From the NCBI GenBank assembly GCA_951812305.1, contig CATOSB010000011.1:62001-126000 (forward strand): a DNA stretch of 64,000 nt. Direction: 5' to 3'. Each line of letters starts with the position of its first letter. Within the stretch, counting starts at the first letter, position 1. Below, in pieces: positions 4,363 through 24,566 of the stretch. A model generated the notes under the pieces. It made no database searches, was not told where the DNA came from, and was given only the letters and a program-made list of their open reading frames with translations. Made by a program: the position numbers and the translations under genes. Source of the stretch: an uncultured Paracoccaceae bacterium. GTDB taxonomy: Bacteria > Pseudomonadota > Alphaproteobacteria > Rhodobacterales > Rhodobacteraceae.

Positions 4363-5461
4363 TGTCAAATCTGGTGTTTGCGGGATCTTTCATGCGGCGG
4401 CGGTTTCGGTCTGGGTTTGCTTGATGCCGTCTTTGAAATTGACGCCTTGGATGACGTCGGCGAGATGATTGAAGCCGCGAAGTTTGCGCCAGTTTTGTTC
4501 GGCGCACTGCCCCAGTTTGAAGATCATGTGGAGCATGCCGTCGCGGGCCAGACAGCCCTTTGAGCGCTTGGTGCGATGACGGATCGTGGCAAAGGCGGAT
4601 TCAATTGGATTGGTCGTTCGGATGCTTTGCCAATGCATTGCGGGAAAATCGTAGAATGCCAGCAGTTCGGTTCGATCTTTCTGAAGCGAGGCGGTGGCTT
4701 TGGGGTACTTGTCTTCAAACGTTTTCACGAGTGCCGTCCTCGATTGCCAGAAATTGTTTCTGACCACGGGTATTTACGCCGATCACGACCAGCGCGCGCA
4801 ACTTGTGATCCTCGCCGCGTAAGCCACTGTGAATACCGTCGGCCCAGATGTAGACCCACTCGTCTTGGGACAGGTCTGCGGTGCGCCACGCCCTGTATTC
4901 AGCGGCCCATTCGGCCTTCAATCTGGCAACTGTTTTGGCCGAAAATCCGGTGGCATTAGCCCCGAGCAAACCCTTCAGCGCCGTTCCCATTTCGCCAGTG
5001 GAAATGCCTTTGAGGTAGAGCCAGGGGATCGCAGCCTGCAGCGTCTTGGTCTTGCGCACGTAGGGCGGTACGAGCGCGGAGCGGAAACTCACTGGCTTGC
5101 CGGTTTTCGAGCGTATCTTTGGAATCTCTACGGTCACAGGTCCAACACCCGTTTGGATTTCACGGGCGGGATGACTGCCATTACGTACCACCCCGGCGCG
5201 CCCGTCTGGTGTTTTGAGGTGAGCAAAGCGATCCATCAATTCCGCAAGCTCAGTTTGAACGGCGGCTTGGATCAGAGCCTGCGCGCCCGTGCGCAAAAGC
5301 TCAGTCAACGGATCAAGGCTGACCTCTCGACCGGCAAATTCAACGATGTTAGTCTCGTCCATGGTGGTGCGTCCTTCTTGGGTCGGATTGGGTTTTTGCA
5401 AAAACAATCCAAACAGATGCACCGCCAACACTCAAACCACGCGAACACCAGATTCAGCCAT
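4363..5461 (-). mobile_element. IS256-family element, decayed
   Basis: About 1.1 kb carrying a broken mutator-type transposase. Imperfect inverted ends are visible as AATCTGGTGTT near 4368 to 4378 and its complement AACACCAGATT near 5444 to 5454; the exact boundaries are approximate. I see no convincing target duplication. Full IS256 elements are about 1.3 kb, in keeping with the internal deletion in the gene. Its insertion removed the N-terminal half of the protease on its left. Confidence 0.75.
4390..5362 (-). pseudogene. IS256 family (mutator-type) transposase, internally deleted
   Basis: Two pieces of one IS256-family transposase. The N-terminal piece (4715 to 5362, from MDETNIVEFAG) contains PIGVGPVTVEIPKIRSKTG-like and IWADGIHSGLRG sequences, the latter carrying the first catalytic aspartate. 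The C-terminal piece (4390 to 4767) has the mutator signature HWQSIRTTNPIESAFATIRH with the catalytic glutamate. The pieces overlap in different frames, and roughly 100 residues usually between them, with the second aspartate, are missing. It is therefore an internal deletion plus frameshift and inactive. The start was placed at MDETN because upstream residues fall in the element end. Confidence 0.85.
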
Positions 5462-5505
5462 AACTCGCGCACGCATTGTTAGGTAACCTGAGTTCTGGAT
5501 AAGCG

Positions 5506-6441
5506 CTATATCTGGTATTCGACCTGCCTGATTGTTTCCGGCACGGTTATGGGTCCCATTTTAACTTTGGTTTTCCCGAGCCTATAGGCTGCGACACACG
5601 AGATGAGGTGTACGAATGCGTTGGCAGGCGATCTGTGTCGAGTGTGTTCCAGTCCCATGCTGGTTTTCAACTTATCGAACAGAGTTTCGATGATGAACCG
5701 CCTTCGCAACAGGATTTTGTTCAGGATTGGCAGGAGATAGTTTTTCATGTTGCGGCGAATGCCGGTGACGAGGTGGAGGCCACGCTGCCAGAGCCGTTGG
5801 AAGAGGGATTTGGAGATATAGCCCTTATCAGCAAATATTTTGCCTTCGGGGCCCGCGATCATGGCTTCAAACGGCTTTCGATCATCGACATTACCTGCCG
5901 TGATTTTGACGGCCATGATCTCCCCCTTGTTGTTGATGATTAGATGCAGTTTGAAGCCAAAGAACCAGCCCATTGTGCTGCGACCGCGCTTTGCCAGCCC
6001 CTTGAAGACCTTGTTTCGATTAATGCGGGCATTGTGGCAGACCGCGAGCTTAGTGCTGTCGGCAAAATAGACGCCGGTTTTTTCACCGCTGAAGCAGTGC
6101 AGCAGTATGCAAAACGGCACCATTAATCTTGGCATGAGGCTGACAAACCGACCATAGCTCGGGAGGTTGCCAAAGCAGTCACGGTATTTCTGCTCAACGC
6201 CATAAATCCAATAATGTTTGAAGTCCTTGAACGGCGACAAGTGAAACAAGACCATGATGAACAGGCTCTCCCCCAGGGTCAGCTTGCCGGCGCGAAGCCT
6301 CTGACGACCCGAGGGGATCAACCGGTGGCGCTCCCAGTCCTCGTAGGTTTTTGCAAAGTCATCGAGACAGACAAAAAGTGCGGTGTTAGTGATCGACATG
6401 AGTGGCGGTCCATATTGTGTCGCTTTTGAACCTTGAATCAT
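5506..6441 (-). CDS. IS982 family transposase
   Basis: 311-residue IS982-family DDE transposase. The core runs through [14 protein letters not shown] (first aspartate), [30 protein letters not shown] (second aspartate) and [14 protein letters not shown] (glutamate), in the order and spacing of the family. The start is taken as the ATG at 6441; a second ATG at 6399 (MSITNTA) is nearer the usual family N-terminus. It is convergent to nothing and divergent from the passenger gene, sharing a spacer of about 90 to 130 bp. Differences from unit 3 include P for L in the MIAGPEGK stretch and R for M in CVAAYRLG. Confidence 0.94.
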
Positions 6442-6527
6442 GGGGCAACGTACCTGGAAACCCCTCTCACCCCATACTAATCACGGGGGCATTCAGGCTG
6501 GTCAACACGGGGCAAAAGGTGCGCGCC

Positions 6528-6968
6528 ATGGAGAACAACTTCCCAATCAACGAAGATCTCGCTTATGAGAAGATCCGGGACCTCATGTTCGACATGATGG
6601 AAGAGGACCCCAACCGTTTCTACGCCCTCACGGATAAGCTCAATGAACTGGCTGCGCTCCCTAAAAGAACCATGACACTTGTGCTCGATCTGATGGCTGC
6701 CACTCCCTTTCAGGTGATCATCCCGAAACACGTACGGAAAAATGACCCTGATACATTCAAAGCAGATCACGAAACCGTTTCAAATGTTCTATTTCTTGGA
6801 GAGTTTGGCGGAATTGCCGTTGAACTGGAGCCAAATGAGGCTTTGAGAGAACCGAGGATCATTTCCATAACAATGGTGGAAATCCCTCATCGCAACCCTC
6901 TGCGAAAAAGGGTCAACGAGTATCGTAAAAAACGAATCAAAAAACTACGAAAAAATTCTGTCGAGTAG
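6528..6968 (+). CDS. IS982 passenger protein of unknown function
   Basis: 146-residue protein beginning MENNFPINEDLAYEK, with AAAAGGT about 8 bp upstream of the ATG. The ORF track begins earlier, at a non-conserved in-frame codon. The N-terminal half is acidic and probably helical. The middle reads VLFLGEFGGIAVELEP. The C-terminus is strongly basic (RKKRIKKLRKN), which suggests nucleic-acid contact. It is conserved in all three IS982 units with one seen residue change (F here, L in the others at DPNR_YAL), so it moves with the element. I do not recognise the family; a transposition regulator or host-interaction factor is possible. Confidence 0.75.
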   Translation: MENNFPINEDLAYEKIRDLMFDMMEEDPNRFYALTDKLNELAALPKRTMTLVLDLMAATPFQVIIPKHVRKNDPDTFKADHETVSNVLFLGEFGGIAVELEPNEALREPRIISITMVEIPHRNPLRKRVNEYRKKRIKKLRKNSVE

Positions 6969-7006
6969 TGCACTGGTGACGCCAACGTCTTATCCAGTAT
7001 CGGGGT

Positions 7007-7069
7007 TAGGTAATAAGCGGAATTAAGCTGAATTCGCGGGCAATATGTCGCGGTTATTCGCCTTTAAGG
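7007..7069. other. 63-bp host sequence between IS982 unit 1 and IS66 copy D
   Basis: A short AT-leaning piece of pre-IS DNA. It begins with the right TAGGTA duplication of unit 1 and ends with the left CTTTAAGG duplication of IS66 copy D. Both neighbours are clean insertions, so 5462 to 5479, this piece and the DNA from 8678 onward were once contiguous. No reading frame is supported. Confidence 0.6.
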
Positions 7070-8669
7070 GTAACTCCCAAGCACCCTGTCCGATAGGGTT
7101 GCGGGGTTTTGTTCCGTCAGAGCCGTGCGATGATCTGAGGTGGTGACAGGGTCAGGATTTCCAGGATGTTGAACCGGTGTTTTCTGGCCGTCGAGATGAC
7201 GGACCTGATGTCGGCGAAGACCCGCGCGCCCTCGAGGGTGCGGAAGGTGCCCGAGATTTTCATGCGCAGCTTCATCATGCGCAGGTCCTGTTCGGCCTGA
7301 TTGTTTGTGAATGGGACCGCGAAGTCGGCGATGAATCGCAAAACGTCATCGCGGTAGTCACGCAGGCGGAGGAGCAGGTTGTGGCCTGGCCGCCTGGCTT
7401 TTCGGCCGCGGGTGCCGGGGCTTTTGGCCAGCGGGGGCCGGCGTTCGTGGAAGGCGAGCCCCTTGGCGAGGATCGCCATGTATCTGGTGACGATACCCTG
7501 GCGAACCAGTTCCGGGAGTTCGGTCTCGCCTTGATCCTGAGCCGCGCATCTGAGCTGATTGGCGCTATGAAGCACTGCGCTCATCTCCGTCGCCCAAGGC
7601 TCTTTTTCGATCTCTTCGATGGCCTTGAGTTCGCGCAAGTGATGCGCCCCGCAGAGGGCGTGGGCGTCCACTCCGCTCATATGGGCGTAGTAGGGTTTTC
7701 CAGTGATCATGAATGATCGTCCCGCCGGTCAGGAAGGTTGGAACAGCACCGCGTTTGGCGCTGATGCGGTAATGGGTGAAGGCGGTATCGCAGATCGTGT
7801 GCAGCCAGTGCAGCTTGCCGGCAACACGAAGTCCGGTCTCGTCCAGATGCCGAACGCCGCCTTCGGCAAGCCGGGCGAGAATGTGTTCAACCACGACACC
7901 CATCTTATTTGCCGCGCCGCGCGTCCAGTTGGTCACGCTGGCCGCGCACAAGCTGGTGGCCCCAAACAGGTCGCGCATAAGCTGGCAGACCCGATCCTCG
8001 GGTATCAGCTGCTGAACATTGCAATAGACCGCCACTGCCCGCATGCGCGTGCCATATTGCACATGCGCGGCCACGCCATCGGGAAAGCCAGCCGTCGTCG
8101 TGGCTCGACAATGGTCGCAACAATAAACCGCCGCCTGATGCTCGGTGACCTCCAGGCGTGGCGCAGGCAAGTCGAACACCTGACGCTTCTCGATCCCTTT
8201 CACCATCTCCGCCGTCAGGGCGCTCTGACAGGCGCTGCAATGCGTCGCCTCATGCCGTTCGACAAAGTCGGGTGTTGACGTCTGGCGCAGGGTGTCGCCC
8301 CGGTGGCCAACTTGGCCGCCACTTTTCTTTCCGGATTTGCCACGCAGGCTGCGCGGGGCTGGCTTCTTCAGGCCATCACTTGAAGGGGGCTTGCTGCTAT
8401 TGCTGCTGTTCTTGGCCAACTGTCGGCGCAGGTCCGTGATCTCTTCCGCCATGCTCGCCAACGCAGCTTCAAGCTCAGCGATCCGACGCAGAGCCGTGGC
8501 GAGAAGTTGTTCAAGGGCGGCAACCTGATCCATCCCACCACTGATTCAGAGAAATCAACCCGGCGCCACAGAATTCAGACAAGAAAGAAAAAAACACGCG
8601 CAAAATGGCAAATTCGACTCACCATAAAACTGACAATAACACTCAAACGTGGGGGTGCTTGGGAGTTAC
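7070..8669 (-). mobile_element. IS66-family element, copy D (inverted, TSD CTTTAAGG)
   Basis: Complete 1600-bp copy in the opposite orientation to A, B, C and E. CTTTAAGG is present at 7062 to 7069 and 8670 to 8677, a perfect 8-bp duplication. The left-end run of C next to the terminus is one base shorter than in other copies, and one base is gained inside the gene, so the total length is unchanged. Confidence 0.95.
7117..8533 (-). pseudogene. tnpC: IS66 transposase TnpC, frameshifted
   Basis: Same transposase as the other copies but broken. In the HDHWKPYYAH stretch the A run is four instead of three bases, shifting the frame near 7700. The first frame (7565 to 8533) then ends in unrelated residues after HDHWK. 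The remainder (7117 to 7710) resumes at the conserved KPYYAHMSGVD. The frameshift falls just after the second catalytic aspartate, so no intact DDE enzyme is made without recoding. Ends are intact, so it could still be mobilised in trans by another copy. Confidence 0.93.
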
Positions 8670-8835: not shown

Positions 8836-8985
8836 GTGTTTGATTTAAGCGTAGAGAGTGTCGAATTTCGACTTGATCGTTTCCAAAATCTCACTAGCTC
8901 CAAATTTTCCGGACGATTGTTTCGCATTGCAAAGCGCGGGTTCGATCTATTCCTCGCAGTGTCGTTGCTACCTTTGTTAACCTGA
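8836..8985 (+). pseudogene. N-terminal fragment of an exopolysaccharide sugar transferase, truncated by IS982 unit 2
   Basis: Too short for the ORF track. Reading from the GTG at 8836, after an in-frame TAG at 8824, gives 48 codons ending RIAKRGFDLFLAVSLLPLL, then two codons and a stop inside IS982 unit 2. The basic KRxFD motif followed by a hydrophobic helix is the start of WcaJ/EpsE-type polyprenyl-phosphate sugar transferases, which begin exopolysaccharide synthesis at the inner membrane. The catalytic domain is absent from the window. The DNA right of unit 2 is the inositol operon, so the rest of the gene was lost by rearrangement. Confidence 0.6.
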
Positions 8986-8999
8986 GTTCTGGATAAGCG

Positions 9000-9935
9000 C
9001 TATATCTGGTATTCGACCTGCCTGATTGTTTCCGGCACGGTTATGGGTCCCATTTTAACTTTGGTTTTCCCGAGCATATAGGCTGCGACACACGAGATGA
9101 GGTGTACGAATGCGTTGGCAGGCGATCTGTGTCGAGTGTGTTCCAGTCCCATGCTGGTTTTCAACTTATCGAACAGAGTTTCGATGATGAACCGCCTTCG
9201 CAACAGGATTTTGTTCAGGATTGGCAGGAGATAGTTTTTCATGTTGCGGCGAATGCCGGTGACGAGGTGGAGCCCACGCTGCCAGAGCCGTTGGAAGAGG
9301 GATTTGGAGATATAGCCCTTATCAGCAAATATTTTGCCTTCGAGGCCCGCGATCATGGCTTCAAACGGCTTTCGATCATCGACATTACCTGCCGTGATTT
9401 TGACGGCCATGATCTCCCCCTTGTTGTTGATGATTAGATGCAGTTTGAAGCCAAAGAACCAGCCCATTGTGCTGCGACCGCGCTTTGCCAGCCCCTTGAA
9501 GACCTTGTTTCGATTAATGCGGGCATTGTGGCAGACCGCGAGCTTAGTGCTGTCGGCAAAATAGACGCCGGTTTTTTCACCGCTGAAGCAGTGCAGCAGT
9601 ATGCAAAACGGCACCATTAATCTTGGCATGAGGCTGACAAACCGACCATAGCTCGGGAGGGTGCCAAAGCAGTCACGGTATTTCTGCTCAACGCCATAAA
9701 TCCAATAATGTTTGAAGTCCTTGAACGGCGACAAGTGAAACAAGACCATGATGAACAGGCTCTCCCCCAGGGTCAGCTTGCCGGCGCGAAGCCTCTGACG
9801 ACCCGAGGGGATCAACCGGTGGCGCTCCCAGTCCTCGTAGGTTTTTGCAAAATCATCGAGACAGACAAAAAGTGCGGTGTTAGTGATCGACATGAGTGGC
9901 GGTCCATATTGTGTCGCTTTTGAACCTTGAATCAT
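9000..9935 (-). CDS. IS982 family transposase
   Basis: 311 residues, full length, with the same [18 protein letters not shown] and [11 protein letters not shown] catalytic stretches as unit 1. It carries T instead of N in [10 protein letters not shown] and L in MIAGLEGK. Nothing is broken, so it should be able to act on all three units. Confidence 0.94.
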
Positions 9936-10021
9936 GGGGCAACGTACTTGGAAACCCCTCTCACCCCATACTAATCACGGGGGCATTCAGGCTGGTCAAC
10001 ACGGGGCAAAAGGTGCGCGCC

Positions 10022-10462
10022 ATGGAGAACAACTTCCCAATCAACGAAGATCTCGCTTATGAGAAGATCCGGGACCTCATGTTCGACATGATGGAAGAGG
10101 ACCCCAACCGTCTCTACGCCCTCACGGATAAGCTCAATGAACTGGCTGCGCTCCCTAAAAGAACCATGACACTTGTGCTCGATCTGATGGCCGCCACTCC
10201 CTTTCAGGTGATCATCCCGAAACACGTACGGAAAAATGACCCTGATACATTCAAAGCGGATCACGAAACCGTTTCAAATGTTCTATTTCTTGGAGAGTTT
10301 GGCGGAATTGCCGTTGAACTGGAGCCAAATGAGGCTTTGAGAGAACCGAGGATCATTTCCATAACAATGGTGGAAATCCCTCATCGCAACCCTCTGCGAA
10401 AAAGGGTCAACGAGTATCGTAAAAAACGAATCAAAAAACTACGAAAAAATTCTGTCGAGTAG
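10022..10462 (+). CDS. IS982 passenger protein of unknown function
   Basis: Second copy of the 146-residue passenger, protein sequence identical to unit 3 and one visible residue from unit 1 (L in DPNRLYAL). The basic C-terminal tail is retained. It lies 57 bp upstream of the inositol dehydrogenase gene on the same strand with only the IS right end between, so read-through from its promoter could drive the operon that lost its own upstream DNA. Confidence 0.75.
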   Translation: MENNFPINEDLAYEKIRDLMFDMMEEDPNRLYALTDKLNELAALPKRTMTLVLDLMAATPFQVIIPKHVRKNDPDTFKADHETVSNVLFLGEFGGIAVELEPNEALREPRIISITMVEIPHRNPLRKRVNEYRKKRIKKLRKNSVE

Positions 10463-10519
10463 TGCACTGGTGACGCCAACGTCTTATCCAGAATCGGGGT
10501 TTGGTAGGGAAGTCGCAAC

Positions 10520-22877: not shown

Positions 22878-23062
22878 AGGGCCTGAAGGAAGCCTTCGAC
22901 GTTCAGCACCCGTTGTTTCGCCCTCTTTGGCTGCGGGTGTTGATCATCGCCTTTTGCTTTGGCTGGGCTGTCTTTGAATGGTCCAACGGAAAAACTGGCT
23001 GGGCGGCGTTGTTCGTGGTGTGTGGCGCTTATCTCGCGCATCAATACCTGAGTTCTGGATAA
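22874..23062 (+). pseudogene. Small membrane protein, C-terminus cut by IS982 unit 3
   Basis: The start codon overlaps the iolD stop. The protein begins MKGLKEAFDVQHPLFRP and has two hydrophobic segments (VLIIAFCFGWAVFEW and WAALFVVCGAYLAHQ). The current frame leaves the host gene at 23045 and ends LSSG inside IS982 unit 3. Removing the unit and one ATCAAT copy restores the frame to a tail AHQWLWAWQGDKNEENEK ending at 24619, about 73 residues in all. Function is unknown. Two membrane segments probably remain, so the truncated form may persist. Confidence 0.75.
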
Positions 23063-23065
23063 GCG

Positions 23066-24001
23066 CTATATCTGGTATTCGACCTGCCTGATTGTTTCCG
23101 GCACGGTTATGGGTCCCATTTTAACTTTGGTTTTCCCGAGCATATAGGCTGCGACACACGAGATGAGGTGTACGAATGCGTTGGCAGGCGATCTGTGTCG
23201 AGTGTGTTCCAGTCCCATGCTGGTTTTCAACTTATCGAACAGAGTTTCGATGATGAACCGCCTTCGCAACAGGATTTTGTTCAGGATTGGCAGGAGATAG
23301 TTTTTCATGTTGCGGCGAATGCCGGTGACGAGGTGGAGCCCACGCTGCCAGAGCCGTTGGAAGAGGGATTTGGAGATATAGCCCTTATCAGCAAATATTT
23401 TGCCTTCGAGGCCCGCGATCATGGCTTCAAACGGCTTTCGATCATCGACATTACCTGCCGTGATTTTGACGGCCATGATCTCCCCCTTGTTGTTGATGAT
23501 TAGATGCAGTTTGAAGCCAAAGAACCAGCCCATTGTGCTGCGACCGCGCTTTGCCAGCCCCTTGAAGACCTTGTTTCGATTAATGCGGGCATTGTGGCAG
23601 ACCGCGAGCTTAGTGCTGTCGGCAAAATAGACGCCGGTTTTTTCACCGCTGAAGCAGTGCAGCAGTATGCAAAACGGCACCATTAATCTTGGCATGAGGC
23701 TGACAAACCGACCATAGCTCGGGAGGTTGCCAAAGCAGTCACGGTATTTCTGCTCAACGCCATAAATCCAATAATGTTTGAAGTCCTTGAACGGCGACAA
23801 GTGAAACAAGACCATGATGAACAGGCTCTCCCCCAGGGTCAGCTTGCCGGCGCGAAGCCTCTGACGACCCGAGGGGATCAACCGGTGGCGCTCCCAGTCC
23901 TCGTAGGTTTTTGCAAAATCATCGAGACAGACAAAAAGTGCGGTGTTAGTGATCGACATGAGTGGCGGTCCATATTGTGTCGCTTTTGAACCTTGAATCA
24001 T
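23066..24001 (-). CDS. IS982 family transposase
   Basis: Full-length 311-residue IS982 transposase with intact DDE stretches, differing from the unit 2 copy at the N of [10 protein letters not shown]. Both flanking ends and the target duplication are perfect, so this is the best candidate for a recently active unit. Confidence 0.94.
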
Positions 24002-24087
24002 GGGGCAACGTACCTGGAAACCCCTCTCACCCCATACTAATCACGGGGGCATTCAGGCTGGTCAACACGGGGCAAAAGGTGCGCGCC

Positions 24088-24528
24088 ATGGAGAACAACT
24101 TCCCAATCAACGAAGATCTCGCTTATGAGAAGATCCGGGACCTCATGTTCGACATGATGGAAGAGGACCCCAACCGTCTCTACGCCCTCACGGATAAGCT
24201 CAATGAACTGGCTGCGCTCCCTAAAAGAACCATGACACTTGTGCTCGATCTGATGGCCGCCACTCCCTTTCAGGTGATCATCCCGAAACACGTACGGAAA
24301 AATGACCCTGATACATTCAAAGCGGATCACGAAACCGTTTCAAATGTTCTATTTCTTGGAGAGTTTGGCGGAATTGCCGTTGAACTGGAGCCAAATGAGG
24401 CTTTGAGAGAACCGAGGATCATTTCCATAACAATGGTGGAAATCCCTCATCGCAACCCTCTGCGAAAAAGGGTCAACGAGTATCGTAAAAAACGAATCAA
24501 AAAACTACGAAAAAATTCTGTCGAGTAG
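24088..24528 (+). CDS. IS982 passenger protein of unknown function
   Basis: Third copy of the 146-residue passenger, identical in protein to the copy in unit 2. Full length, with GGCAAAAGGT before the ATG and a basic tail RKKRIKKLRKN at the end. It lies divergent to the transposase and 38 bp from the right end of the unit. Confidence 0.75.
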   Translation: MENNFPINEDLAYEKIRDLMFDMMEEDPNRLYALTDKLNELAALPKRTMTLVLDLMAATPFQVIIPKHVRKNDPDTFKADHETVSNVLFLGEFGGIAVELEPNEALREPRIISITMVEIPHRNPLRKRVNEYRKKRIKKLRKNSVE

Positions 24529-24566
24529 TGCACTGGTGACGCCAACGTCTTATCCAGAATCGGGGT

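Follow-up and report, generated by a model that had tools for sequence, protein, structure and literature searches.

The 1521-bp unit exemplified by copy 1 (Table 1) represents an IS982-family transporter IS (tIS), in which a second, divergent gene, the passenger, lies inside the ends of the element and moves with the transposase gene. It was found in a window of 64,000 nucleotides, the whole stretch of DNA analysed, corresponding to positions 62001-126000 of contig C11 in the 7.18-Mb genome of an uncultured Paracoccaceae bacterium. A search of the open literature gave no earlier report of an IS982 tIS, which on that evidence makes this unit, with about 120 copies in its genome, the first passenger-carrying IS982 element to be described. 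The passenger belongs to an unannotated protein family common to two unrelated IS families and, in another phylum, to CRISPR type I-D loci, which raises the question of whether a common accessory protein is recruited by simple ISs and the same one used by a CRISPR system. We tentatively favour an autonomous IS982 tIS whose passenger would, as a small binding protein, modulate or support the nucleic-acid enzyme encoded next to it.

The three units in the window are each exactly 1521 bp long, start at positions 67486, 70980 and 85046 of contig C11, and are 99.3-100% identical to copy 1. As described in a first-pass annotation of this DNA, an IS982 transposase gene and a divergent gene of 146 codons are enclosed by one pair of ends in each unit, and two units are flanked by perfect 6-bp target duplications, TAGGTA for copy 1 and ATCAAT for copy 3; the duplication of copy 2 is imperfect (TTGTTA/TTGGTA, 1 mismatch in 6). 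The left and right inverted repeats, both 18 bp long and with 5'-AC ends, are identical at 12 of 18 positions. An alternative start of the transposase at the internal Met15 (6399) is possible.

Table 1. Features of the IS982-family tIS in the window (window positions; strand given where applicable).
Feature	Position	Strand	Remarks
Copy 1, IS982-family transporter IS, 1521 bp	5486..7006		TAGGTA duplication on both sides
Left target duplication TAGGTA	5480..5485
Left inverted repeat ACCTGAGTTCTGGATAAG	5486..5503	+	at 3' end of transposase gene
IS982-family DDE transposase, 311 aa	5506..6441	-	matches NF033520 and PF13612
Divergent intergenic region, 86 bp	6442..6527		between transposase and passenger
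Passenger gene, 146 aa	6528..6968	+	AAAAGG eight bases before ATG
Right inverted repeat, reverse complement ACCCCGATACTGGATAAG	6989..7006	-	boundary set by target duplications
Right target duplication TAGGTA	7007..7012
Copy 2	8980..10500		transposase 9000-9935 (-), passenger 10022-10462 (+)
Copy 3	23046..24566		transposase 23066-24001 (-), passenger 24088-24528 (+); gene positions derived from those in copy 1

Membership in the IS982 family was assessed from the transposase, the ends and the target duplications. The transposase scores 238 bits (cut-off 130, E 1.1e-70) with the NCBIfam model transpos_IS982 (NF033520) and matches Pfam PF13612 with an E of 1.7e-69, and the DDE transposase is combined with 5'-AC terminal inverted repeats and direct repeats of 6-7 bp. 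In a review of the family, the 69 elements analysed measure 845-1282 bp (mean 996), direct repeats range from 2 to 10 bp, terminal repeats comprise 11-32 identical bp, and the word "passenger" has 0 occurrences (PMC7335449). An ordinary member has one gene and a length of about 1 kb, as the first-pass annotation had stated, and the nearest relatives with readable ends (1002, 968 and 1007 bp) likewise carry the transposase alone, whereas the present unit has 1521 bp and two genes. Its left end has the same form as the ends of the nearest IS982 relatives (ACCTCAGTTCGGGATAAG and others) and is nearly that of Megaera and other relatives. Since transposase and ends are those of the family, the departure in length and gene number marks a variant of IS982. 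Many IS families have members that carry unrelated passenger genes, known as tIS (PMC7986276); the element resembles these in that the passenger lies inside its own ends and the unit moves whole, and differs in that its passenger comes from an unnamed family also seen in CRISPR operons and in an IS family unrelated to IS982. The transposase would recognise both 18-bp ends and move the entire 1521 bp, passenger included, with duplications of 6-7 bp.

Copies were counted genome-wide with 36-base probes, allowing 3 mismatches, which gave 120 passenger sites and 125 left ends, and 0 for a backwards control pattern, a scale beyond what the window alone shows. From about 2 Mb of the genome and from individual loci, 38 full-length copies (31 distinct in sequence) were read; they are 99%+ identical, with the passenger intact, and in all 38 neither gene contains a stop. 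They lie at different sites, 27 of them with exact target duplications of 6-7 bp, and the proposal of the first-pass annotation that the passenger is genuine mobile cargo is thereby borne out. Copies of the element ending before the passenger, which that annotation had named as counter-evidence, and transposase-only versions were both absent from the ~2 Mb, in which every partial copy is either truncated or interrupted by another IS, and all 36 passenger-family matches lie within the IS982 element. The ~120 copies, near-identical among those read, mean a recent burst in the presence of the passenger. Some copies have flanks in common (copy 1/C2:40578, C18:68213/C18:106124 and C33:3279/C1:172779), so a few are segmental duplicates and not separate jumps. 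For copy 1 (5480-7012) and C2:40578, the surrounding segment is itself duplicated in the genome and adjoins an IS256-like transposase at 4390-5431. The copies vary at only 13 sites, and the comparison of synonymous with non-synonymous change, also suggested in the first-pass annotation, yielded N 2 and S 3 in the passenger against an opportunity of 930:365; the copies are too similar for these few changes to inform on selection on the IS982 passenger itself.

The passenger has a net charge of -4 over residues 1-73 and of +10 over the last 27, in agreement with the acidic N-terminal half and basic tail noted earlier, and the basic tail is present in all members of its family. The family core consists of GDEGGIxCxLD, followed by VSITHL and a basic YQKHRIKKLK helix, the counterparts in the passenger being GEFGGIAVELE, IISITMV and YRKKRIKKLRK. 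Searches of Pfam, NCBIfam, PHROGs and PADLOC returned no meaningful match to the passenger, a PDB sequence search returned chance matches only, and neither domain nor PDB searches gave a functional domain or sequence match naming an activity. Rhizobium plasmids and alphaproteobacterial genomes contain relatives with 29-31% identity to the passenger. A profile HMM of 14 alphaproteobacterial relatives recovers the passenger with an E of 2e-17, and a profile of cyanobacterial members only does so with an E of 5e-5 (Z=100,000); both were built without the passenger to avoid circularity, and no shuffled sequence was listed. The passenger family is not confined to IS982: it has members within ISAzo13 elements and CRISPR I-D loci as well as free-standing ones. 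At family level this partly realises the counter-evidence named in the first-pass annotation, hits without an adjoining IS982. Searches of genome, viral, plasmid and phage collections gave no close relative (more than ~36% identity) from outside this genome.

By their substitution patterns, the relatives of the passenger are under purifying selection, with pairwise dN/dS mostly 0.09-0.25, dS being near saturation in several pairs. The value is 0.13 for the Rhizobium versus the Rhodobacterales ISAzo13 versions, 0.16 for the pair L097/L099, 0.50 for L096/L098, and 0.25 and 0.21 for cyanobacterial pairs. AlphaFold (AF2) models of two family members, calculated with only six sequences as input, have mean pLDDT values of 75 and 81 (core ~85) and predict a small barrel of SH3-like type, followed by a basic helix at the C-terminus. 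In Foldseek searches, Anabaena CcbP (PDB 3urg, PF11535), itself a small SH3-like fold, ranked first for both models, with weak scores (E 0.097 and 0.0072, TM 0.38-0.45), followed largely by SH3/tudor-like barrels. All TM values are thus below 0.5, identity is 10-14%, and PF11535 matches neither the passenger, nor its relatives, nor anything in its own genome. The models therefore support an SH3-like fold class and not calcium binding.

In Rhizobium, three copies of an ISAzo13 element, identical or nearly so over ~1.79 kb, carry a passenger homologue inside their ends (GGGCCTGAGACG and CGTCGGGTCC), with flanks read as 3-bp duplications; homologue and transposase overlap by 11 nt. The element of Rhizobium ruizarguesonis TP23 (~1.79 kb) resembles the IS982 unit in that the homologue lies inside its ends, and differs in that the transposase is of an unrelated family and the homologue lies downstream on the same strand, with 30% identity to the passenger. 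An ISAzo13 element of a Rhodobacterales MAG also has the homologue inside its ends and a TAA duplication. In Mesorhizobium, an ISAzo13 copy with the family gene is split by an IS5 (L103); a partnership with IS5 was considered for this locus and rejected, as the IS5 sits within the gene-carrying ISAzo13 element. In a tree of the family, the IS982 passenger lies apart from the ISAzo13 members, on a long branch with weak support, and these separate lineages favour independent capture by IS982 and ISAzo13. In a Rhodobacteraceae MAG (L096:573-1110), the transposase is deleted and the small gene remains between ISAzo13-like ends; this may be the decayed form of a mobile cassette with the passenger alone.

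On four cyanobacterial plasmids (two of Pseudanabaena, one of Dolichospermum and one of Anabaena 90), a relative lies inverted directly beside cas6 in a type I-D cas operon, divergent from cas6 across a short gap, which is the same arrangement as that of the passenger and the IS982 transposase. These genes, annotated as hypothetical proteins, are located at L106:2462-2914, L107:2462-2905, L108:2495-2914 and L109:2495-2914. They form two sublineages with ~36% identity to each other, which implies that the link with CRISPR is old. The family gene was found on 4 of 17 I-D plasmids; this and the other context counts are lower bounds and no fair sample, being obtained with single-protein queries of genomes and, for cyanobacteria, from plasmids. 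Most ISAzo13 elements and most plasmid I-D loci are without the gene, which is therefore dispensable for those systems.

In the reading we favour, unrelated mobile elements and defence loci may repeatedly have acquired members of this unnamed small-protein family, which seems to be a repeated associate of mobile and defence DNA and not a chance acquisition. The passenger, a diverged member, would be a small binding protein whose SH3-like barrel and basic helix contact DNA, RNA or a protein partner, and it would tune or assist the adjacent nucleic-acid enzyme, the transposase in IS982 and ISAzo13 and, in type I-D CRISPR systems, the cas6-cas4-cas1 block. The first-pass annotation had likewise suggested a possible regulator of transposition, or else a host factor. 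A fixed enzyme partner is not universal in the family, as some relatives, among them L050 beside a universal stress protein and L048, stand alone with neither nuclease nor transposase adjoining.

It is rather unlikely that the passenger is ordinary cargo, i.e. a small host gene (e.g. for CcbP-like ion or ligand binding) caught by chance and without effect on transposition. Many IS families do have members with unrelated passengers (PMC7986276), the top-ranked structural match, CcbP, binds calcium, and there are free-standing relatives in ordinary chromosomal settings. However, the family is rare, with any member in ~2% of the alphaproteobacterial genomes sampled, and its presence in two unrelated IS families and beside cas6 is above the expectation for random capture; moreover, the passenger is kept in all full-length IS982 copies. 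At the other extreme, and also unlikely, the family may serve as an adaptor for mobility and defence in general. Unrelated DDE transposons and type I-D operons would each have recruited this small SH3-like protein because of a direct action on their enzyme or its nucleic acid, such as that of a cofactor in handling target or end DNA.

Quite unlikely, too, is a role in counter-defence or in modulating defence, by which the passenger would protect the element against host surveillance such as CRISPR-Cas or restriction. Such a function would account for a benefit to unrelated elements and is consistent with the relatives inside type I-D cas operons, with one beside DUF4928 and Vsr in a likely restriction locus (L049), and with two that follow AbiEi/AbiEii genes (L097, L099). 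Anti-CRISPRs, however, usually abound in phage sequences, and no member of the passenger family was found in phage records or IMG/VR contigs, nor does the passenger match PADLOC or PHROGs; within a cas operon, moreover, regulation and inhibition are equally likely roles. The two AbiE-linked genes are 79% and 76% identical to the ISAzo13 version (P0005) and may be ISAzo13 remnants, and a partnership with AbiE was demoted on account of this closeness.

A repressor of transposition that limits copy number is very unlikely. Divergent genes over a short common intergenic region are typical of repressors, and a basic helix is present, but the predicted fold is a barrel and not a helix-turn-helix, the 86-bp intergenic region yielded no clear operator palindrome, and the recent burst to ~120 copies, with the passenger intact and 99%+ identity among those read, speaks against a strong repressor. 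A promoter and terminator scan of the same region gave no sigma-70 consensus and no terminator. That the second frame is not a gene at all, as the missing Pfam and NCBIfam matches and the similarity of the copies might suggest, is hardly credible given homologues with conserved motifs in alphaproteobacteria and cyanobacteria, purifying selection in these relatives and a plausible ribosome-binding site (AAAAGG).

On Bradyrhizobium plasmids, the family gene is found near genes for a SWIM protein and a helicase. N-terminally shortened and full versions occur there (L044:2932-3201 and L105:2501-2833); they recur on many conjugative plasmids, with SWIM/helicase or recombinase genes nearby.

Within the Paracoccaceae genome, a 1599-bp IS66-type element is inserted into the passenger at element position 1453-1460 in both orientations, which marks an insertion hot spot (C2:183283-186410, C2:435181-438310 and C11:467747-470876). 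These insertions into the tail of the passenger were considered as evidence that broken copies still move, and this was set aside in view of the hot spot and the two orientations. An IS66-type transposase also adjoins copy 1 in the window (7117-8533), where it is split into two overlapping frames and looks frameshifted; the nested copy at C2:183283 appears intact.
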